64,000 nt of DNA from Planctomycetota bacterium (GTDB taxonomy: Bacteria > Planctomycetota > SZUA-567 > H5-PLA8), in assembly GCA_027493525.1 (NCBI GenBank), contig JAOSKN010000002.1, forward strand, positions 1,769,326-1,833,325, given 5' to 3'. A model generated the notes under the pieces. It had not been told where the DNA came from. It ran no database searches and saw only the letters and a list, made by a program, of their open reading frames with translations. Shown one piece after another: positions 30,564 to 39,487 of this stretch; position 1 is the first letter of the stretch; each line of letters begins with the position of its first letter. The position numbers were made by a program, and so were the translations under genes.

Positions 30564-31415
30564 TTACGCCCAAGCCTTCAATTCGCACGGATCGAAGACC
30601 GGCCCGTCCTGGCAGATCGCTCGGCGCTTCAAGCCGCTGTGCGCGTGCGGCGTCAAGGCGTCCACGACGCAGGCGCGGCAGACGCCGACCCCGCAGGCCA
30701 TGCGCGCCTCGAGGGAGACCCGGCAGGGCAGCCCGCGCGCGCGGGCGAGCTTCGCGGCGGCTTCCATCATCGGCTCGGGGCCGGCCACGTAGAGCGCGGC
30801 GCGCTTACCGCGCAATTCGCCCTCGAGGAGCGCCTCCAAGGCCGCGACCGCGTGCCCGCGAAACCCGCGGCTGCCGTCGTCGGTGGCTTCGTGAAGTCGC
30901 GTCGAAGGCGCGGAGACGGCCTCCGCGCGCGCGAGTTGATCGGCTGAGCGCGCGGCGAGGATCAGGCAGCGCGAGCCGGGAAGCTCGGCCGGCATGCGGC
31001 GGAAGAAGAAGACCAGCGGCGCCACGCCGCTGCCGCCGCCCACGCCGACGTGCGCCTCCGCGCCGGGCAGCGCCTCGAAGCCGCGCCCGAGCGGCCCGAT
31101 GATCCGCAGCGCCCCGCGGCCCGCGCCGCTTGCGGCGAAGGCGCGCAGGATGCCCGTCCCGCGGCCGGCCACGAAGTACAGCAAGCGGATGTTGCCGGCG
31201 CCGGGGTCCGCGTCGAGCACCGCCAGGGGGCGCGGAAGCAGCGGGTCGAGGCCGGAGGCGTCGGGCTGGCAGGCGAGCATCACGAACTGCCCGGGTTGCG
31301 CGCGCCGTGCGATTTCGGGCGCGCGAAGCGTCAGCAGGAAGTAGCGGGACGAGACGGCCTCATGGGCGACCGGTTCGGCGAGCGTCTGTACGAACGGAGA
31401 CTCGGCGGCGCGCAT
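30564..31415 (-). CDS. PyrK-like FAD/NAD/[2Fe-2S] electron-transfer subunit
   Basis: A 283-residue protein with three parts: an FAD-binding barrel (about 8-100; SRYFLLTLRAPEIARRAQPGQFVML), an NAD-binding domain (about 105-220; VGVGGGSGVAPLVFFF), and a C-terminal [2Fe-2S] site of type C-x4-C-x2-C-xn-C (CGVGVCRAC, then CQDGPVF). This is the layout of the dihydroorotate dehydrogenase electron-transfer subunit, which passes electrons from dihydroorotate to NAD+. No PyrD gene adjoins it here, so a related ferredoxin:NAD(P)H partner function is possible. The start is at ATG 31415; upstream in-frame codons give an Arg-rich tail not expected in the family. Confidence 0.82.
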   Translation of the reverse strand: MRAAESPFVQTLAEPVAHEAVSSRYFLLTLRAPEIARRAQPGQFVMLACQPDASGLDPLLPRPLAVLDADPGAGNIRLLYFVAGRGTGILRAFAASGAGRGALRIIGPLGRGFEALPGAEAHVGVGGGSGVAPLVFFFRRMPAELPGSRCLILAARSADQLARAEAVSAPSTRLHEATDDGSRGFRGHAVAALEALLEGELRGKRAALYVAGPEPMMEAAAKLARARGLPCRVSLEARMACGVGVCRACVVDALTPHAHSGLKRRAICQDGPVFDPCELKAWA

Positions 31416-31553
31416 CCGTGAAAGTGTACGTGCCCTGCGCGCTTTCGTCCATGGGGGGCGTAGGCGTACGCGGAATGCGGGACATGCGCTCGAAAGCCGG
31501 CTGCGGATAAGGCGGGCTGACGCCCTGCCCAACTCCGGTATTTCGCATTCAGG

Positions 31554-31874
31554 TCAGCTTCGGAAGAGGTTGTTCAACGCGTCTCTGGCCTTGGATTCCT
31601 TCATTTTCTCTTCCGCGCGCGGGGACATTTTCTTGTTGGGTTTGTCGTCCTGCAACGGCTTGATCTTGAAGCGGAAGTACGCGCACTCGTTCTTGCCCTG
31701 CCTGTCGAAGACGAACGGCGCGCGGGCCTCGCGGCACTTGTTCTTGGCGTACTCGTCGTAATGCAGGCAGTTGGCGCAGGCATGAAGCCAGGAGGAGCAC
31801 TTCTGACAGACGGCGTCGACGGGGACCGCCGCGTCGCTGAGGAAGGGTTCCCCGCATTTGTAACACGCACCCAT
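31554..31874 (-). CDS. Cys-rich zinc-binding protein, unknown
   Basis: 106 residues with Cys pairs at 4/7 (CYKC), 23/26 (CQKC) and 33/36 (CANC), and single Cys at 47 and 64, enough for two zinc sites. The middle reads HYDEYAKNKCREARAPFVFD and KNECAYFRFK, and the C-terminus is charged and disordered-looking. GAGGT lies 7 nt before the ATG, which supports a real gene. I recognise no family; the pattern suggests a metal-stabilised small protein in RNA/protein handling, but that is a guess. It is followed by the PyrK-like gene after 138 nt on the same strand. Confidence 0.6.
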   Translation of the reverse strand: MGACYKCGEPFLSDAAVPVDAVCQKCSSWLHACANCLHYDEYAKNKCREARAPFVFDRQGKNECAYFRFKIKPLQDDKPNKKMSPRAEEKMKESKARDALNNLFRS

Positions 31875-32269
31875 GATCGTGACCTCATTCCCTGATTAAG
31901 CTGGTAAAAACCCGCGGCAAACCGGGCCCAGTAGCCGGGTTCGGGCGTGTGCAAGGCCTGGAGATCGAAGGGCAAAGGCCATCGCCCGGCGGGCGCGGCG
32001 TCTGGCATTCGATCGGTAGTCCGCTTGGAACCGGAGGAGCGAATCGAGCGCGGCATAGGCCACGCGGGAACTCGCTTACGCGCGAATGCTGCAACCTCCG
32101 GCCAAAACTCGAATCGTACGGATCACTACCATGCCGTGCAGAAGAGGATGAACCGAATCTTGGTACTTAGGAAGATCGGTATGTGGAAGTCGACTTCTGA
32201 ACCCATTTAATCTTATTTTCATCCCTTGTCAAGGCGAATATAAAGGGGGCAACCCGGTTCATTTCATCC
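31875..32269. other. 395-nt intergenic region before the phosphodiesterase gene
   Basis: No gene is visible. The last 70 nt are AT-rich, unlike the surroundings, and include a perfect 12-bp palindrome GAAGTCGACTTC (32186-32197), TTGTCA (32226-32231) and an ATATAAA stretch. This looks like a promoter region for the downstream gene, but I cannot assign a good -35/-10 pair. Confidence 0.4.
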
Positions 32270-34540
32270 ATGTCCACGAATGCCAGTATTCCGTTCTCTC
32301 TTTCTCGACGCGCCAGCTTGGTCCTGGCCTGCGTCCTACTGGTGCTGCTCGGAGCAGCCCTGTCCGCCGGCCGCTCCCTGCGCCAGGCCGACCCGCCTTC
32401 CGCGGCTCCGGACGCCAAGCCCCCGCGGCGTAAGCTCATCGTCCTGGGGTTCGATGGAGCGGATCCCAGGCTCTGCGAGCGCTGGATGGAGCAGCGCACA
32501 GCAGGGGACTCGGAGCCGGTCCTGCCGCATCTGGCCGAACTGCGGCAGGGCGGCGGCTTTGCCCGGATGCGGACTTCGGTGCCGGCCCAGACGCCCGTCG
32601 CCTGGGCCAGCGTGGCCTGTTCGGCCAATCCGGGGGTGACCGGCATCGCCGATTTCGTGGGGCGGGATCCGGCGACGATGCAGCCTTACCTGACGCTCGT
32701 CGAGCCGACCACGCGCCCGTTCGGCTGGGGGCGCCCGTGGCGCTGGCTGGCGGCATTCGGGGCGGGCTGTCTCTCGCTGCCCCTGTGGATCGGGCTGCTG
32801 CGCCTGGCGTGGCGCGGCACGCGGCATGCGCGCATGCGCGGCGTGCTGGCAGGCCTGGCCGGGCTGGCCCTCGCGGCATCCCTTGGCCACGCGCTGACCG
32901 CATGGCTGCCCTACCGCGTGCGCGCGGGGCGAAACCTGAGGCAGGGCGTGACGCTCTGGCAGGCCGCGGGCGAACGCGGCGCGCGGACGGTCTTCCTGAA
33001 CTTCCCGCTGACCTTTCCCGCCGAACCCGCGCCCGGCCTGAACCTGCTCGCGGGATTCGGCACGCCGGATCTGCTCGGCACGCCCTACTCCTGGACCTTC
33101 TTCGCGCCGGAACTGCAAGAACTCGCCGCCACCGAGACCTTCGGGACGCTCAAGCCTTGGTCTCAAACCGGCCCGGAATTGCGCGGAACGCTCGAAGGCC
33201 CGGAAAGCCCGCTGCGGCCGGGCGAGCGCCCTCTGGTGGAGGTGGCGCTGCGCCCCGCCGAGGGCACGCTGCGGTTGGGGGACGCGCCGGTTCAGGCGCT
33301 GGAGCCCGGCGCGTGGTCGGAGCCGTTCGGCGTCACGCTGCGCTACTCGCCGATCCTCGCGCTGCGCGCCCAGATTCGCGCGATCTGGTGGCGCGACGAG
33401 GCCGACCCCGCGCGCGCGCGACTCCTTGTGGGTCCCCTGATGTTCGACCCGCGGCGCGTTCCGCCGACCGTGCCGCTTTCGTACCCGCGGGGCTACGCGA
33501 GCGAGTTGGCCGAAGCTGTGGGCACGTTCCCCACCGCGGGCTGGGCCATCGCCACCCATCCGGCCAAGGACGGCTACCTCGACGACGCGGGTTTCCTGAA
33601 AGACCTGCATTACGCCTTCGACCGGCACGAGGCGCTGCTGCGGCACGAACTCGCGCGCGACGACTGGGACCTGCTCGCGGCGGTCTTCATGGAGCCCGAT
33701 CGCGCCGGGCATATTCTCTGGAAGCACCTCTCGGACCGGCACCCGCTGCACGATCCGGCGCGGGCCGAGGCCGGCGTGGAGGCGCTGCGCGAAGTATATC
33801 GGCGCATGGACGGCATCGTGGGCGAGGCGCTGGCCCGCGCCAAGGCGCTGGATGCGGACGTGCTGATCCTGAGCGACCACGGCTTCGCGGCCTTCGACCG
33901 GCAGGTGCACCTGAACTCGCTCCTGCGCCAGGCAGGACTGTTGCGCCTGCGGCAGGAGAGCCTGCCCGCGGCCGGCACGCAGGCGATGAGCGGCGAGAAC
34001 CTCAATCGCATCGACTTCGCCCGCACCCAGGCGTACGCGCTGGGCCTTGGCGGGATCTATCTGAACCTGAAAGGCCGCGAGAAGTGGGGCGCCGTGAATG
34101 AAGCCGAGCGTTCGCTCGTCCTGGATGCGGTGGAAGGGACCCTCCTGAAGCTGAAGGATCCCGAGACCGGCAAGCCGATCGTGCGGCGCGTGCTGCGTGG
34201 AGAACGGCTCTATCGCGGCGCCTTAGCCGAGCGATTGCCCGACCTCCAGGTGTGTTTCGAACCGGGTTACCGGGTCAGTTGGGCAACGGTGGTCGGCGGG
34301 GCGCCCGAAGGAGAGCTGGTCGTGCCGAACCGGTCGGACTGGTCCGGCGATCATTGTTCGATCGACCCGGATGAGGTGCCCGGGATTCTCTTCAGCACCA
34401 GGCGGCTGCCCGAGGGGCTCCAGCCGAACCTGACCGACTTAGCGCCCAGCGTCTTGGCGCTGATGGGCTATGAAATAGCGCAGGAATGGAACTGGGAAGG
34501 CACGCCATGGTGGAAGGCGAGCGAGATCCAGGAGCCCTGA
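32270..34540 (+). CDS. Membrane-anchored type I phosphodiesterase/nucleotide pyrophosphatase
   Basis: A 756-residue alkaline-phosphatase-superfamily enzyme with an N-terminal membrane helix (about 15-33). Metal and nucleophile motifs are recognisable: LIVLGFDGADP (Asp62), QTPVAWASVACSANPG with the probable nucleophile Thr108, MEPDRAGHILW (Asp/His), LILSDHGFAAF (Asp-His) and a final WSGDHCSIDPDE (His). Two further hydrophobic stretches at about 155-220 interrupt the domain, an uncommon insertion. The family hydrolyses phosphodiesters or pyrophosphates of nucleotides or lipids; the substrate is not readable. It has its own AT-rich promoter region and no operon partner. Confidence 0.85.
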   Translation: MSTNASIPFSLSRRASLVLACVLLVLLGAALSAGRSLRQADPPSAAPDAKPPRRKLIVLGFDGADPRLCERWMEQRTAGDSEPVLPHLAELRQGGGFARMRTSVPAQTPVAWASVACSANPGVTGIADFVGRDPATMQPYLTLVEPTTRPFGWGRPWRWLAAFGAGCLSLPLWIGLLRLAWRGTRHARMRGVLAGLAGLALAASLGHALTAWLPYRVRAGRNLRQGVTLWQAAGERGARTVFLNFPLTFPAEPAPGLNLLAGFGTPDLLGTPYSWTFFAPELQELAATETFGTLKPWSQTGPELRGTLEGPESPLRPGERPLVEVALRPAEGTLRLGDAPVQALEPGAWSEPFGVTLRYSPILALRAQIRAIWWRDEADPARARLLVGPLMFDPRRVPPTVPLSYPRGYASELAEAVGTFPTAGWAIATHPAKDGYLDDAGFLKDLHYAFDRHEALLRHELARDDWDLLAAVFMEPDRAGHILWKHLSDRHPLHDPARAEAGVEALREVYRRMDGIVGEALARAKALDADVLILSDHGFAAFDRQVHLNSLLRQAGLLRLRQESLPAAGTQAMSGENLNRIDFARTQAYALGLGGIYLNLKGREKWGAVNEAERSLVLDAVEGTLLKLKDPETGKPIVRRVLRGERLYRGALAERLPDLQVCFEPGYRVSWATVVGGAPEGELVVPNRSDWSGDHCSIDPDEVPGILFSTRRLPEGLQPNLTDLAPSVLALMGYEIAQEWNWEGTPWWKASEIQEP

Positions 34541-34573
34541 TAAAATCCGAAGTTGATCCGGAGTCATCTATTG

Positions 34574-34587
34574 TTGCACGAGTGCAA
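34574..34587. promoter_or_regulatory. Inverted repeat TTGCAC-GA-GTGCAA
   Basis: A perfect 6-bp inverted repeat with a 2-nt centre lies 34 nt after the phosphodiesterase stop and 238 nt before the small hypothetical gene. It has no poly-U tail. It could be an operator, but a repeat this short may be chance. The rest of 34541-34824 shows nothing recognisable. Confidence 0.25.
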
Positions 34588-34824
34588 AACTCTGGAATTT
34601 ATGGAGTTGTGAGGTCGCAAAACTACCAACTTAACCCTTGCCCCGCGCGAAAGCTCCGGTATGAACGTTGCTTCGCCATAAGCGGATTGCAGCTTGAGCT
34701 GGAACGAGCCGGGGGGCGGCTGCGGGGTGTTGTTTGGCCCGCCTGCCACGGACGTGTTCAGCCGTTGCCGGTAGTCCGGAATCGAGGGGGGCATTCGATG
34801 CTCTGTCGTGAAGAGGAGGCCACC

Positions 34825-35127
34825 ATGGTCATGACCTCGACTCCATTCTCCGTGGATTACGCGGTCCAGAATATTCCCGCCGTCTCGCGGGTGCTGCGCG
34901 GGATGCCGGAGTTCGCGCGCGGGGTATGGCGCGGCGGCCTGGAAGAGTTCATCTGGATGGTGCCGCAGGGCGGCGGCGTAAGCCAGCCGGTGGCGACGGT
35001 GCGCCTGAGCGACGGCAATTTGCGGCTCGAATGCCAGAGCCGCCATGCGTTGCGCGCGATGCAGGTGCTGATCGACAGTCTGGTCGGCGCGCACCTGATT
35101 CCCAAGGAAGCGGCCAGGGCCCGCTAA
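34825..35127 (+). CDS. Small hypothetical protein
   Basis: 100 residues without a membrane segment or cysteine motif: MVMTSTPFSVDYAVQ, then RVLRGMPEFARGVWRGGLEEF, then SRHALRAMQVLIDSLVGAHL. A strong GAGGAGG (34813-34819) 5 nt before the ATG makes a real start likely, and a clear terminator follows 31 nt after the stop. It has no recognisable family and no operon partner, since the next gene is on the other strand. The short helical C-terminus could be a protein-interaction surface, but no function is claimed. Confidence 0.6.
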   Translation: MVMTSTPFSVDYAVQNIPAVSRVLRGMPEFARGVWRGGLEEFIWMVPQGGGVSQPVATVRLSDGNLRLECQSRHALRAMQVLIDSLVGAHLIPKEAARAR

Positions 35128-35158
35128 CACCCATCGAAGCGAAGCCGGATTCAGATGC

Positions 35159-35200
35159 AAGCGCCCGCCGGAGGAACCCCCTCGGCGGGCGCTTTCGTTT
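35159..35200 (+). terminator. Rho-independent terminator after the small hypothetical gene
   Basis: A 12-bp stem (AAGCGCCCGCCG at 35159-35170 with CGGCGGGCGCTT at 35183-35194) is followed by TCGTTT. It also faces the end of the PhyH gene on the minus strand, but the U-run favours the plus strand. Confidence 0.85.
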
Positions 35201-35223
35201 CCGGGTGCATGAATTCGCGGAGC

Positions 35224-36030
35224 TTACATCTTGTCTGCGCCGCCACAGGGTCCGCCTCCGATGGCCGCTTCGCGCTGTACCACGTTGCCGTTCATGTCCA
35301 GCAGCGGGAAGTAGCCCTTGCTGACCTCGTGGCAGGAAGCCGGCGCGTAGTGGCAGATGTAGCTGCGCCGCCAGCGCGTCTTGCTCTCGTTGGGCGTGGA
35401 GCCGTGCAGCAGGCTGCCATTGAAGAAGAGCACGTCGCCGGGCTCAAGAATCGCCGGAATGGGCGTCATGCCCGGCGGCGGGGGCACGTAGTCCTGGCTG
35501 AAGTTGTACTTGGGGTCGGCCTTCTGCGGGCAGGCGATCTCCATGGTGTGCGTGCCGGGGACGACTTGCAGGCCGCCATTCTCGAGGTCGCTGCGGTCCA
35601 GGGCCAGCCAGGAGGCGATACAGGAGTGCGGCCGGACGCGCAGGTAGTAGTTGTCCTGGTGGAAGGTCTGGCCCTTCGAGCCCGGCGGCTTGTAGTAGAA
35701 CATGCTCTGCGTCGCGATCGGTTCCTCGTTCAGCAGCGCACGCAGCATCTCCGCCACGCGCGGTTCGAGGAGCATCTTCAGCGAGAGGTCGTCCCAGCGG
35801 TGCGGCTGCATCACGCGCGTATAGACCTTCAGGATGTCGCCCTGCGCCTCCTCCCAGCCGTGAAAGGGGTAATGCTTGAGCGCGCGCGTGGCGTGCAGGC
35901 GCATGAAGTGGTCGGTCAGCGCCCAGACTTCGTTGGGCGTGAAGAGCCCGCGGGCGATGTGGTAGCCGTCGCGGTGGAACGCTTCGGTCTCGGCCGGGCT
36001 GAGGACGGTTTCGCACAGGCTGGCGGGCAT
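35224..36030 (-). CDS. Phytanoyl-CoA dioxygenase (PhyH) family protein
   Basis: A 268-residue Fe(II)/2-oxoglutarate oxygenase. The metal triad is seen as His124 and Asp126 (FHQDNY) plus a distal His209 (SLLHGS); Arg219 or Arg221 (TRWRRSY) would bind 2-oxoglutarate. The fold also shows HYLR-like and GGLQVVPGTHTM strands. Planctomycetal PhyH enzymes hydroxylate varied substrates, for example in ectoine, sugar or natural-product metabolism; I cannot say which. The start is at 36030 with GAGGAG 9 nt upstream. It is divergent from an AraC regulator 98 nt away, and the shared region contains repeated TGTAC(A/G)AT motifs, so the AraC protein probably controls it. Confidence 0.9.
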   Translation of the reverse strand: MPASLCETVLSPAETEAFHRDGYHIARGLFTPNEVWALTDHFMRLHATRALKHYPFHGWEEAQGDILKVYTRVMQPHRWDDLSLKMLLEPRVAEMLRALLNEEPIATQSMFYYKPPGSKGQTFHQDNYYLRVRPHSCIASWLALDRSDLENGGLQVVPGTHTMEIACPQKADPKYNFSQDYVPPPPGMTPIPAILEPGDVLFFNGSLLHGSTPNESKTRWRRSYICHYAPASCHEVSKGYFPLLDMNGNVVQREAAIGGGPCGGADKM

Positions 36031-36072
36031 GGTTCGCGCTCCTCGGGATGGGGTGGCTCGGGGGCTTCCATT

Positions 36073-36158
36073 CCTGTACAATCTGACTGTCTGATAAGAA
36101 AGAATACCCCAGGGGCGTAGGGTGATCCATGGATCGTACGGCCATAGACATGTACGAT
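36073..36158. promoter_or_regulatory. TGTAC(A/G)AT repeats in the PhyH/AraC divergent region
   Basis: TGTACAAT begins at about 36075 and TGTACGAT at 36151, and an inverted ATCGTAC lies at 36133-36139, forming with GTACGAT (36152-36158) a perfect 7-bp inverted repeat 12 nt apart. The latter falls in the first codons of the AraC gene, where it could be an autoregulatory site. AraC proteins usually bind direct repeats, so the assignment is tentative. Confidence 0.4.
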
Positions 36159-37064
36159 TCTGCTATTCGGGCGGACGGCCGGCTCCAGGAAACGGGCGCC
36201 GGGCCGCCGGGCCTGCTGGCCACGGGGCATTTCCACGCGCGCTGGCCCTACCGGGTGCTCCGTTCGCGCGGGACGCAGGACTGGCTGTTGACCTATACCT
36301 TGGCCGGGCAGGGGCGGTACCGGCAGCGCGGGGCGGACTTCCGGGCCCGCGCCGGCGACCTGGTGCTCCTGGAGCCCGGGGCGGCGCACGATTACGGATG
36401 CCTGGAGCGCGGCGTATGGGACTTCGTCTGGGCGCACTTCCTGCCGCGCCCGCACTGGCTCGACGCGCTGCGCTGGCCCGCGGAAGGGAAGGGGCTCTAC
36501 CGCCTCCGCGTGGCCGATGCGGGGTCGCGCAAGCGCCTGCGCGCCGCCTTCCTGCGTTGCGACGGCGACGCGCGGCAGGCGCGCTCGGCGCGCGGGGCAT
36601 GGCAGGCCGAGCTGGCGCTCAACGGCCTGGAAGAGACGCTGTTCCTGGCGGCGCGGGAGCACGAACTGGCGCACGGCGCGCGCCGGCTTTCGCCGCCCAT
36701 CCGCCGCGTGGTCGAGCACCTCGCCGGCGCGCTGGCGAAGGACCACGCCGTGGCGGAGCTGGCGCGGCTGGCGCGGCTTTCGCCTTCGCGCTTCGCGCAC
36801 CGCTTCAAGCAGGAGACCGGCGACGCGGCGATCGCGTTCCTGCTGAAACTGCGCCTGCGCGAGGCCGCGCGCATGCTCGCCGTGACCGGCCGCAGCGTCA
36901 AAGAAGCCGCGGCGGAGGTTGGCTTTCACAGCCCGTTTTACTTCAGCCGCTGCTTCTCCCGGCACTTCGGGGTGAGCCCGCGCGAGTACCAGCGCCGCGG
37001 GGGCGGGGGCGGGCGCGGCCAGGGCGAGGGGCCCGGTCCCGCCAAGGCCTCACCCGCGCCGTGA
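36129..37064 (+). CDS. AraC-family transcriptional regulator
   Basis: A 311-residue regulator. Residues about 30-110 form a cupin-like sensor (WLLTYTLAGQGRYRQRGADFRARAGDLVLLEPGA). The C-terminal two-HTH domain (about 195-290) carries DHAVAELARLARLSPSRFAHRFKQETG and SVKEAAAEVGFHSPFYFSRCFSRHFGVSPREYQ. A Gly/Arg/Pro-rich tail of about 20 residues follows. It is divergent from the PhyH gene. GGGTG lies just before ATG 36129; the in-frame ATG 36150 has no ribosome site. It likely activates PhyH in response to its substrate. Confidence 0.93.
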   Translation: MDRTAIDMYDSAIRADGRLQETGAGPPGLLATGHFHARWPYRVLRSRGTQDWLLTYTLAGQGRYRQRGADFRARAGDLVLLEPGAAHDYGCLERGVWDFVWAHFLPRPHWLDALRWPAEGKGLYRLRVADAGSRKRLRAAFLRCDGDARQARSARGAWQAELALNGLEETLFLAAREHELAHGARRLSPPIRRVVEHLAGALAKDHAVAELARLARLSPSRFAHRFKQETGDAAIAFLLKLRLREAARMLAVTGRSVKEAAAEVGFHSPFYFSRCFSRHFGVSPREYQRRGGGGGRGQGEGPGPAKASPAP

Positions 37065-37173: not shown

Positions 37174-38616
37174 ATGAATTCAGCCGCCTGGGCCGCGCTG
37201 CTCGCGGCCAGCCGCCAGGGTTCGGGCGCCCCAAGCGATCCGGCCGGCGTCTTTCTGATGCTGGCGGGGATGATCGTCTTCCTCATGCTCCTGGCGGTGG
37301 CGGCGATCGCGGCGCTGAAGAAACGCCCGCGCTACGACGCGGCGCCGGCCCTGCCGCCCTTGGACATGCTCCGTGACGAGCTGGCGCTGCCGGCGCCGGA
37401 ACCGCCCGAGGACCGGGGCGCGCGCCATCGTCATGAGACCGCGCTGGCCGGGCGCGCGCGCTTTGAAGCCTGCCGGATCGCCGCGGATTTGGGCCTGCGC
37501 GGGCGCGGCGAAGGGCGGCCCGCCGGCCCCGTGCGCGTGTTGGCCGGCCCGGGCCCGACGGGCGCCTTGGCGCTTGCCGTCGCGCGGCATTTGGAAGCCT
37601 TCGGCGTCGAGGTCTCCGCGCAGCTCGTGCTGCCCGCGGCGAAGCTGGGAGCGGAGGCGCGGCGCGAGCGGCTGACGCTGGAGCGCGCGCGCGTGAAGAT
37701 CCTGGACGGGCTGGCGCAGCGCGAGCTGGGCCCGCTGGCGCGGCTGGTCATGGGAGTCGAGGACGCGTATCTGCCGCGCATGCGCCGCGAGGACGTTTCG
37801 GCGCTGGCGCTCGAAGCGCGCAAGCTGCATGTCGCCGTGGACCGCCTGGAGGCCTTCGACGCCGTCTTCGTGCCGCCTCCGCCGGACCTCGACGACCTCG
37901 TGATCCCCGTCCCGGAAACGCCGCTTACGCGGGAAGAGACGCGGCTCCTGGATTCGACGGCGCAGGAGCATTACGGCATCCCGGGCGAGGCGCTGATGGA
38001 GCACGCGGGGTACTGGGCGGCGCGGGAGACGTTCCTGGCCGCGCGCGACCTGGCGGCCCGCGCCGGCGAGGAGCCCCGCGTGACCGTGCTCTGCGGGCGC
38101 GGCAACAACGGCGGCGACGGGATGGTGATCGCCCGGCACCTGTTCTGGTGGGGCGTCGTGCCGCGCGTGATCCTGCTCGGCGCGCGCGAGCGCTGCAGCG
38201 AGGACTGCCGCAACAACCTCGACCTGCTGGCGGAAGAAGGCGTGAAGACCGCGCCGCTGCTCGACGCCTCGCAATGGCCCGCATTCGCCGAGGACCTTAA
38301 CGGCAGCCACTTGATCGTCGACGCCCTGCTGGGCACCGGCATGAGCGGCGCGGTGCGCGGGGAAACCGTGGAGGCCATCGCGCGGATCGACGCCGCTCGC
38401 GAGCACGGCGCATGGGTGCTCGCGGTGGACGGACCTTCGGGCCTGGACGTCAACACGGGCGAACCGCTTGGCGCCTGCGTCCGCGCGGACCTCACCGTGA
38501 CCTTCGCCGCGCCGAAGGTGGGGTTCCTCAAGGGCCAGGGCCCGGAGTTGTGCGGCCAGGTGATCCTCGCGGACATCGGGCTGCCGAGGGATTTGTACCT
38601 TAGAAAGTCGCCATGA
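37174..38616 (+). CDS. nnrE: NAD(P)H-hydrate epimerase with degenerate duplicated domain and membrane anchor
   Basis: 480 residues. A membrane helix at about 26-48 is followed by two YjeF_N-like modules. The first (about 85-235) reads VRVLAGPGPTGALALAVARHLEAFG where an active module would have GRGNNGGDG, so it has lost the substrate/K+ site. The second (about 250-475) is intact: VTVLCGRGNNGGDGMVIARHL at about 305, VDALLGTG, and LAVDGPSGLDVNTGEPLG with the catalytic Asp near 418. NnrE repairs the hydrated NAD(P)H S/R epimers; its usual kinase partner domain (NnrD) is absent. Typical bacterial stand-alone NnrE has about 220 residues, so this is a tandem-duplicated, probably membrane-tethered variant. 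GGGGAA precedes the ATG by about 10 nt. Confidence 0.85.
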   Translation: MNSAAWAALLAASRQGSGAPSDPAGVFLMLAGMIVFLMLLAVAAIAALKKRPRYDAAPALPPLDMLRDELALPAPEPPEDRGARHRHETALAGRARFEACRIAADLGLRGRGEGRPAGPVRVLAGPGPTGALALAVARHLEAFGVEVSAQLVLPAAKLGAEARRERLTLERARVKILDGLAQRELGPLARLVMGVEDAYLPRMRREDVSALALEARKLHVAVDRLEAFDAVFVPPPPDLDDLVIPVPETPLTREETRLLDSTAQEHYGIPGEALMEHAGYWAARETFLAARDLAARAGEEPRVTVLCGRGNNGGDGMVIARHLFWWGVVPRVILLGARERCSEDCRNNLDLLAEEGVKTAPLLDASQWPAFAEDLNGSHLIVDALLGTGMSGAVRGETVEAIARIDAAREHGAWVLAVDGPSGLDVNTGEPLGACVRADLTVTFAAPKVGFLKGQGPELCGQVILADIGLPRDLYLRKSP

Positions 38617-38695: not shown

Positions 38696-39487
38696 TTGCC
38701 ATCGCTCTCGCTCGAATTCCTCGGCAGCGGCACCTCCACCGGCGTGCCGGCGATCGGCTGCGCGTGCGCGGTCTGCACGTCCGACGATCCGCGTAACCGG
38801 CGGCTGCGGCCCTCCGTGCTGCTGCGCGGGGGCGGGACGGCGGTCGTCGTGGACACCGGCCCGGATTTCCGCGAACAGATGCTGCGCAGCAAGGTCGCGC
38901 GGCTCGACGCGGTCCTGATCACGCACTACCACGCCGACCACGTCGTCGGGATCGACGACCTGCGGCGTTTCAACATGCTGCAGAAGCAGGTGCTGCCCTG
39001 CTGGGCCACCGAGAAGACCCTGGCCAGCCTGCGGCACTCCTTCGGGTACGTCTTCAGCGAGACCCTGCGCCCCGGCCTGCCGAATCTCACCCCCCAGACC
39101 ATCGTGCCGGGACAGCCGTTCGAGATCGGCGAGCTGCGGCTCGAACCGTACGAGATCGACCACCACGTGTTGCCCAACATCGCGTTGAGAATCGCGCGCA
39201 AGGGCACGCAAGGCCCGGTGCTCGTCTACTGCATGGACTGCAAGCGCATCCCCGAGGCCAGTTACGAGGCGCTCGCCGGCGCCGACCTCCTGGTGCTGGA
39301 CATGCTGCGGGAGCAGCCGCATCCGACGCATTTCAACCTCGAGGAAGCGCTTGCCGCCGTCGCGCGCCTGCGCCCGCGAAAGACCTGGTTCGCGCACATG
39401 GCCCACGAGGTCGATCACGCCGCCATCGAGGCCAAGCTCCCGCCGGGGATCCGGCTGGCCTACGACGGTCTGGTCGTGGAGCCGTGA
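38696..39487 (+). CDS. Metallo-beta-lactamase-fold hydrolase, PhnP-like
   Basis: A 263-residue MBL-fold enzyme. The zinc motif HYHADHVVGIDDLRRF, an N-terminal Cys pair (CACAVC), IDHHVLPNIALRIARK and WFAHMAHEVDHAAIEAKLP match the PhnP-type phosphodiesterases, which cleave cyclic phosphodiesters such as cyclic ribose phosphates or other small phosphodiesters. It starts at TTG with AGGGAAG about 6 nt upstream. It is monocistronic with respect to the NnrE gene (79 nt gap) and 25 nt before the glycosyltransferase gene, with which it may be co-transcribed. Substrate not assignable. Confidence 0.82.
   Translation: MPSLSLEFLGSGTSTGVPAIGCACAVCTSDDPRNRRLRPSVLLRGGGTAVVVDTGPDFREQMLRSKVARLDAVLITHYHADHVVGIDDLRRFNMLQKQVLPCWATEKTLASLRHSFGYVFSETLRPGLPNLTPQTIVPGQPFEIGELRLEPYEIDHHVLPNIALRIARKGTQGPVLVYCMDCKRIPEASYEALAGADLLVLDMLREQPHPTHFNLEEALAAVARLRPRKTWFAHMAHEVDHAAIEAKLPPGIRLAYDGLVVEP

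Follow-up and report, generated by a model that had tools for sequence, protein, structure and literature searches.

Results

A gene for two fused YjeF_N domains

The window, which is the whole 64,000-nucleotide stretch of planctomycete DNA analysed here, carries on its forward strand a gene of the NnrE type whose product combines a predicted transmembrane anchor, a degenerate YjeF_N domain and a catalytic YjeF_N domain in a single chain (Table 1). Its start codon, an ATG, is supported because the first residues of the homologous protein in a sister genome (L005) align with those of the window's protein, and because the sister gene begins at that place with a GTG that overlaps the stop codon of the pyrK gene (GTGA).

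Table 1. Position of the tandem gene, its protein features and its neighbours in the window.
Feature	Position	Strand	Basis or remark
PyrK-like FAD / [2Fe-2S] / NAD(P)-binding subunit gene	30564..31532	-	precedes the epimerase gene directly in relatives
Small Cys-rich (zinc-ribbon-like) protein gene, 106 aa	31554..31874	-	upstream of pyrK in the window's family, conserved
NnrE-type CDS, 480 aa: TM anchor, pseudo-YjeF_N, catalytic YjeF_N	37174..38616	+	TIGR00197 150.1 bits, cut-off 88.6
Predicted transmembrane helix core, residues 27-45	37252..37308	+	hydropathy; AF2 helix 23-49
KKRPR, residues 49-53, positive-inside signal for a cytosolic C-terminal part	37318..37332	+	KRRP/KRRK in 4 other family members
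Degenerate YjeF_N domain, residues ~81-225	37414..37848	+	Pfam, hhalign, isolated fold, Foldseek, VIA-align
Intact YjeF_N / NAD(P)H-hydrate epimerase domain, residues ~251-472	37924..38589	+	Pfam, TIGR00197, AF2, TM0922 superposition
GRGNNGGDG motif, residues 308-316	38095..38121	+	core of the motif (nearly) invariant among 20 class proteins and 38 broader rows
D419 of VDGPSG, at the place of the invariant Asp of YjeF_N domains (AI-BP D188, hEdc3 D443)	38428..38430	+	equivalence by alignment
K448, position of the E. coli K192 lysine	38515..38517	+	equivalence inferred from TxTFxxxKxG context
MBL-fold hydrolase gene, downstream neighbour kept in part of the class	38696..39487	+	profile matches and neighbourhood comparison

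The first-pass annotation had described the protein as two fused YjeF_N modules, the first one deprived of the GRGNNGGDG loop and the second one intact, and this description holds. Pfam YjeF_N matches the ORF twice, at residues 272-450 and, with its N-terminal half alone, at residues 116-178. When the two halves are scored separately against PF03853 (cut-off 24.9 bits), the C-terminal half reaches 150.9 bits and the N-terminal half 28.7 bits (E 1.6e-6), which makes both of them members of the YjeF_N family. In addition, profiles of the two domains built from 20 members of the window's class align with each other by hhalign at P 3.3e-9 and a score of 62.0; the reversed C-domain profile scored 7.0 and none of 50 column shuffles exceeded 15.9. 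Because of these controls, and because the tandem is kept across the class, a chance likeness between the two halves is excluded. A frameshift or an assembly artefact as the source of the tandem was also considered and ruled out, since the tandem is present in 20 genomes. We regard it as virtually certain that this is a tandem YjeF_N protein with a dead first copy. Such an epimerase represents a fresh architecture of a known enzyme family and not a new type of system. A search of open-licence papers turned up no account of an NnrE that is tandem or membrane-anchored, and a similar search gave no match for a hydrate epimerase in planctomycetes.

The second domain is a predicted epimerase

The ORF exceeds the cut-off of the NAD(P)H-hydrate epimerase model TIGR00197 and belongs to the NnrE family, and its C-terminal domain superposes on TM0922 with a Z score of 30.6 over 208 residues at 1.8 Å. 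The residues by which an NnrE is recognised, namely the GxGNNGGDG loop (G308-G316), D419 and K448, are all kept in this domain. The invariant aspartate of YjeF_N domains corresponds to D188 in AI-BP and D443 in Edc3 (PMC4059234), and K192 of E. coli YjeF has been reported to be required for at least 95% of the epimerase activity (PMC5938422); D419 and K448 would be the counterparts of these catalytic residues. Judged by its conserved residues, the live C-terminal domain is very likely an epimerase.

No second YjeF_N gene was found elsewhere in the window's genome. The dehydratase (PF01256) is encoded there by a stand-alone ORF (G000:C2:2406819-2407655), 0.6 Mb from the epimerase gene, and the PF01256 (Carb_kinase) domain that would define a bifunctional Nnr is absent from the 480-residue protein, YjeF_N being its sole Pfam domain. 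A dehydratase match was obtained in 26 of the 29 class genomes. Two genomes of one genus, G009 (92% complete) and G014, have a dehydratase match and no epimerase match.

The first domain keeps the fold and has lost the active-site motifs

In the N-terminal domain, 'VRVLAGPGPTGALALAVARHLEAFG' occupies the place of 'VTVLCGRGNNGGDGMVIARHLFWWG' in the C-terminal domain. GNNGGD is absent from all 20 N-terminal domains of the class, none of which contains GxGNN.GD or D/E.PSG either, so that the first half carries no recognisable epimerase active site. According to the model, the domain ends ahead of the Lys-bearing strand and its C-terminal strands are missing.

Does the first half still adopt a YjeF_N fold by itself? 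Residues 76-250 were folded alone, with one ortholog as the sole companion row and no catalytic YjeF_N row, and hence a catalytic row could not impose the fold. The best model (pLDDT 67.1, pTM 0.65; the other four of five, pLDDT 43-55) has the order helix-strand-helix-strand-helix-strand-strand-helix-strand, which is the YjeF_N order with five strands. When this model was compared with the PDB by Foldseek, ranks 1 to 6 were all YjeF_N structures (E 1.7e-5 to 1.4e-3), with human Edc3 at the top and yeast YNL200c, mouse AI-BP and TM0922 among the others; a viral library gave no match at E <= 0.001. VIA-align likewise placed AI-BP (2dg2) first (Z 12.3, 144 residues, rmsd 3.9), but since unrelated Rossmann and oxidoreductase chains at Z 7-10 are intermixed with YjeF_N chains under rank 1, this ranking is insufficient by itself to settle the fold. 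In the full-length AF2 model, pLDDT is about 55-79 in the core of the N-terminal domain and below 50 at residues 161-183. The first-pass annotation had called for a structure prediction of both halves and named a fold other than YjeF_N in the first as a refuting outcome, which did not appear; such a fold is ruled out by the isolated model and the Foldseek search. Because the Foldseek and profile matches coincide with missing motifs and a missing Lys strand, we read the first half, from its sequence and predicted structure, as a dead YjeF_N domain.

The dead domain is under purifying selection

dN/dS ratios were calculated by the Nei-Gojobori method in four pairs with finite dS, a fifth pair (L051/L054) being saturated and left out. 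The values for the N-terminal and the C-terminal domain were, respectively, 0.27 and 0.21 (window/L005), 0.36 and 0.29 (L007/L008), 0.27 and 0.25 (L009/L010) and 0.20 and 0.17 (L043/L044). The dead domain is under purifying selection, with a constraint nearly that of the catalytic domain. Two of its residues, R96 and R138, are invariant in the 20 N-terminal domains. At position 280, which corresponds to R96 in the C-terminal domain, none of the 20 class members and 18 of 36 single-domain relatives have Arg, a pattern hinting that the two copies split residues between them, though it is drawn from one clade whose sequences are not independent. E92, which is nearly invariant in other members, has been lost in the window's own genus. 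In two families, f3 and f6, the N-terminal domain has shortened to 99-145 residues in most members (the exception, L034, has 165), and this shortening is as compatible with erosion as with specialisation. Since it is conserved across the whole class, the dead domain probably has a function of its own.

The tandem is widespread in the class

The sample of the window's Planctomycetota class comprised 29 genomes, 22 of which contain YjeF_N. An intact tandem was found in 20 of these 22, so the distribution that the first-pass annotation wished to see examined proved broad, and a tandem with a dead copy is more widespread than is evident from a single sequence. Of the two remaining genomes, G028 has both halves with a run of N between them followed by in-frame stops, probably an assembly fault, and was excluded from the intact count. 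The other, G003, belongs to the window's family and has one domain only, as if a single-domain gene had taken the tandem's place; around this epimerase gene (L176), the sequence read shows neither a pyrK-like nor an MBL gene. The seven class genomes without a YjeF_N match are mostly incomplete, although the 92% complete G009 is among them. One further tandem locus, L062 (JAKLKQ010000056.1), appears from its identical length of 46,803 to be the same contig as G004:C135 and is not an extra genome in the counts.

In the phylum sample of 392 genomes (including the 29 of the class), 320 matched, and the best 150 matches were listed, 22 from the class and 128 from outside it. Among the 128 listed matches from elsewhere in the phylum, none extended into the first domain's conserved core; their starts fall at profile positions from 86 onwards, mostly at 120-150, and the start of the catalytic domain is at about 140. 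The first domain was equally absent from 79 other loci (L063-L141, from the best 80 matches) and from nine loci of the rest of the phylum (L163-L171), and among the best matches beyond the phylum the tandem was confirmed nowhere. Within the matches listed, then, the tandem looks like a trait of this class.

A predicted membrane anchor restricted to one family

The hydrophobic segment near the N-terminus (residues ~27-45) has a mean Kyte-Doolittle hydropathy of 2.87 over 19 residues and is immediately followed by KKRPR. All five tandem members of the window's family possess this helix, versus none of the 15 tandem members of other families. In the five helix-bearing proteins there are 3-5 Lys/Arg in the 15 residues past the helix and 0-1 ahead of it. 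By the positive-inside rule, the Lys/Arg-rich flank of a helix faces the cytosol and, because these residues lie on the catalytic side, an N-out/C-in topology is expected. A cytosol-facing membrane anchor is accordingly a highly probable prediction for the window's family, and placement at the membrane is what the first-pass annotation had proposed. That annotation had also named a cleaved signal peptide as the case that would speak against a tether; the sequences, with a helix followed by KKRPR or KRRP and no conserved AxA cleavage site common to the five members, do not have the features of one. What did not stand is its treatment of pseudo-enzyme and tether as one unit: the tether occurs in one family, and the pseudo-domain is class-wide, with five other families that carry it untethered. 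On this distribution the two features arose separately and the pseudo-domain is independent of the tether.

Gene neighbourhood and a local inversion

The protein encoded by the neighbouring pyrK-like gene matches NAD_binding_1 and, above the Pfam cut-off, DHODB_Fe-S_bind (45.3 bits), though its scores against the NCBIfam equivalogs are 94.7-109.0 bits for cut-offs of 219-314, and it is for this reason named only PyrK-like here. Of 21 other class genomes, 10 have this gene close to the tandem gene: in nine it is the immediate upstream neighbour, and in L178 it stands about 2 kb away. Among 79 loci of other taxa, some with short flanks, it is nowhere close to the epimerase gene. In the sister genome L172 the stop codon of the pyrK-like gene overlaps the start of the epimerase gene (GTGA). 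In the window it is found 5.6 kb away and inverted, within a 6.5-kb block (30564-37064) that is turned around relative to L172 and has one breakpoint exactly at the pyrK-like/epimerase junction. The block contains the pyrK-like gene, the Cys-rich protein, a phosphodiesterase-like gene, a small ORF, PhyH and an AraC regulator. As a consequence of this inversion, the window's epimerase gene is no longer preceded by its usual neighbour and comes after the AraC-type regulator instead. An invertible promoter for the displaced pyrK-like gene was considered and rejected, the inverted repeats being short, imperfect and off the two edges of the block, and the rearrangement is treated as an ordinary inversion.

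The Cys-rich protein has no Pfam or NCBIfam match. The MBL-fold hydrolase gene follows the tandem gene in seven of 21 other class genomes; among the NCBIfam models its product matches that of the GPMC-system MBL hydrolase best, at 286.7 bits and under the cut-off of 360. A link with vitamin B6 has been proposed for epimerases (PMC5938422), and no vitamin B6 gene is present among the typed neighbours.

Discussion

What could a dead YjeF_N domain do in front of a live one? The reading that we place first, with about even confidence, is that of a cytosolic NnrE in which the dead domain acts as a built-in structural pseudo-subunit, supplemented by an anchor in the window's family; for the pseudo-subunit function taken by itself, our confidence stays slightly under even. 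In this scenario, one YjeF_N partner would have been duplicated and then fused in tandem, and the duplicated copy would have lost the K+/phosphate loop, the catalytic Asp and the Lys strand. The dead copy may have been retained to offer the catalytic half a partner surface that it requires, so that an intramolecular pseudo-dimer would replace the homodimer partner. This chain would, in the window's family, also have gained an N-out/C-in anchor bringing the enzyme to the cytosolic face of the membrane, with the dehydratase (NnrD) remaining a separate cytosolic protein. AI-BP is a dimer, and a dead partner fused to a live one should retain its fold and interface while giving up catalysis, in agreement with the kept fold and lost motifs seen here. 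YjeF_N has also been described as needed for the dimerisation of Edc3 (PMC4059234). The internal pseudo-dimer is suggested by this analogy, and the membrane placement presumably brings a benefit. Regulation or scaffolding had been suggested in the first-pass annotation; the built-in pseudo-subunit is the simpler reading.

An unlikely alternative is that dead domain and tether form a docking module on a membrane or PyrK-like partner, creating a local site of NADH oxidation and repair. The proximity of the pyrK-like gene in ten class genomes, its GTGA overlap in L172 and its absence near the 79 loci from other taxa would fit such a module. However, no such gene is nearby in 11 of the 21 class genomes (several on short contigs), most of which keep the tandem, the pair is separated in the window's own genome, and the neighbour is not firmly a PyrK, with 109-119 bits that are all under the NCBIfam cut-offs.

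Somewhat less likely, the dead domain could be a regulatory sensor of NAD(H) or another ligand that tunes the attached epimerase, similarly to the YjeF_N domain of human Edc3, which is reported to bind NADH with a Kd of about 163 uM and in which pocket mutants alter function (PMC4059234). Human Edc3 is the top Foldseek match of the isolated domain, and the neighbouring pyrK-like gene codes for a flavoprotein that uses NAD(P)H. Yet the GNNGGD and Asp that line the pocket have been lost in 20 of 20 N-terminal domains, the C-terminal strands are missing and the loop sequence varies freely among families.

We consider it quite unlikely that the domain is a neutral leftover of tandem duplication, kept through its in-frame fusion to a needed enzyme. 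In each pair the N-terminal domain evolves somewhat faster than the C-terminal domain, and in f3 and f6 it is shorter, as a leftover might be, but dN/dS ratios of 0.20-0.36 in four pairs, the invariance of R96 and R138 and the retention of the domain by six families argue against this possibility. A more elaborate proposal, in which the dead domain is an obligate allosteric or docking half that, with the anchor and the PyrK-like flavoprotein, makes up a membrane-bound station for NADH oxidation and repair, appears improbable. If it were true, damaged NADH would be repaired at its place of use, and the Arg lost at position 280 of the live domains and kept as R96 in the dead domains would stem from a sharing of residues over an internal interface. 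Finally, a cleaved signal peptide leading to a secreted or periplasmic enzyme is very improbable: the N-terminal hydrophobic stretch is long and AIA (window) or ASA (L006) can be read as cleavage motifs, but Lys/Arg come right after the 19-residue core in five of five proteins with none or one before it, no AxA is conserved, and both the helix-less relatives and the cytosolic dehydratase point to a cytosolic role.

Compared with known systems, the C-terminal domain resembles classical NnrE proteins (mouse AI-BP/NAXE 2dg2, yeast 1jzt, TIGR00197) in fold, GNNGGD, Asp and Lys positions and length, and here too a dehydratase partner is found in the genome; the window's protein differs by the extra dead YjeF_N in front and, in one family, the anchor. 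In the bifunctional Nnr proteins (E. coli YjeF, T. maritima TM0922), the epimerase is fused to the dehydratase, whereas here it is fused to a dead copy of itself and the dehydratase is a separate gene; in structural alignments the epimerase domain is 35-38% identical to that of TM0922. Among 1,248 genomes with both epimerase and dehydratase genes, 97% were reported to have them fused (PMC5938422). The same source states that the NAD(P)HX epimers interconvert spontaneously, that the need of cells for an epimerase is an open question, and that an E. coli mutant without at least 95% of its epimerase activity shows almost no NAD(P)HX accumulation (PMC5938422). A lineage in which epimerase and dehydratase are split, the dead partner is conserved and one family has a predicted anchor gives a natural way into the study of a non-catalytic or localised role. 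The tandem chain would also serve as a single-chain system for probing the role of the second subunit in YjeF_N dimers.

Dead relatives of enzymes are known in other settings. Edc3 carries Lsm and FDF domains. Human Edc3 (3d3k/3d3j) is described as a pseudo-enzyme scaffold whose YjeF_N has no epimerase role and serves dimerisation and binding; in contrast, the window's protein is devoid of Lsm and FDF (no Pfam match at E 1) and has its dead copy fused to an active one. The AdoMetDC-prozyme of Trypanosoma likewise pairs a dead paralog with a live partner, which the dead one activates (PMC5201418), with an unrelated fold and as separate polypeptides, whereas in the planctomycete protein both are found in one chain.
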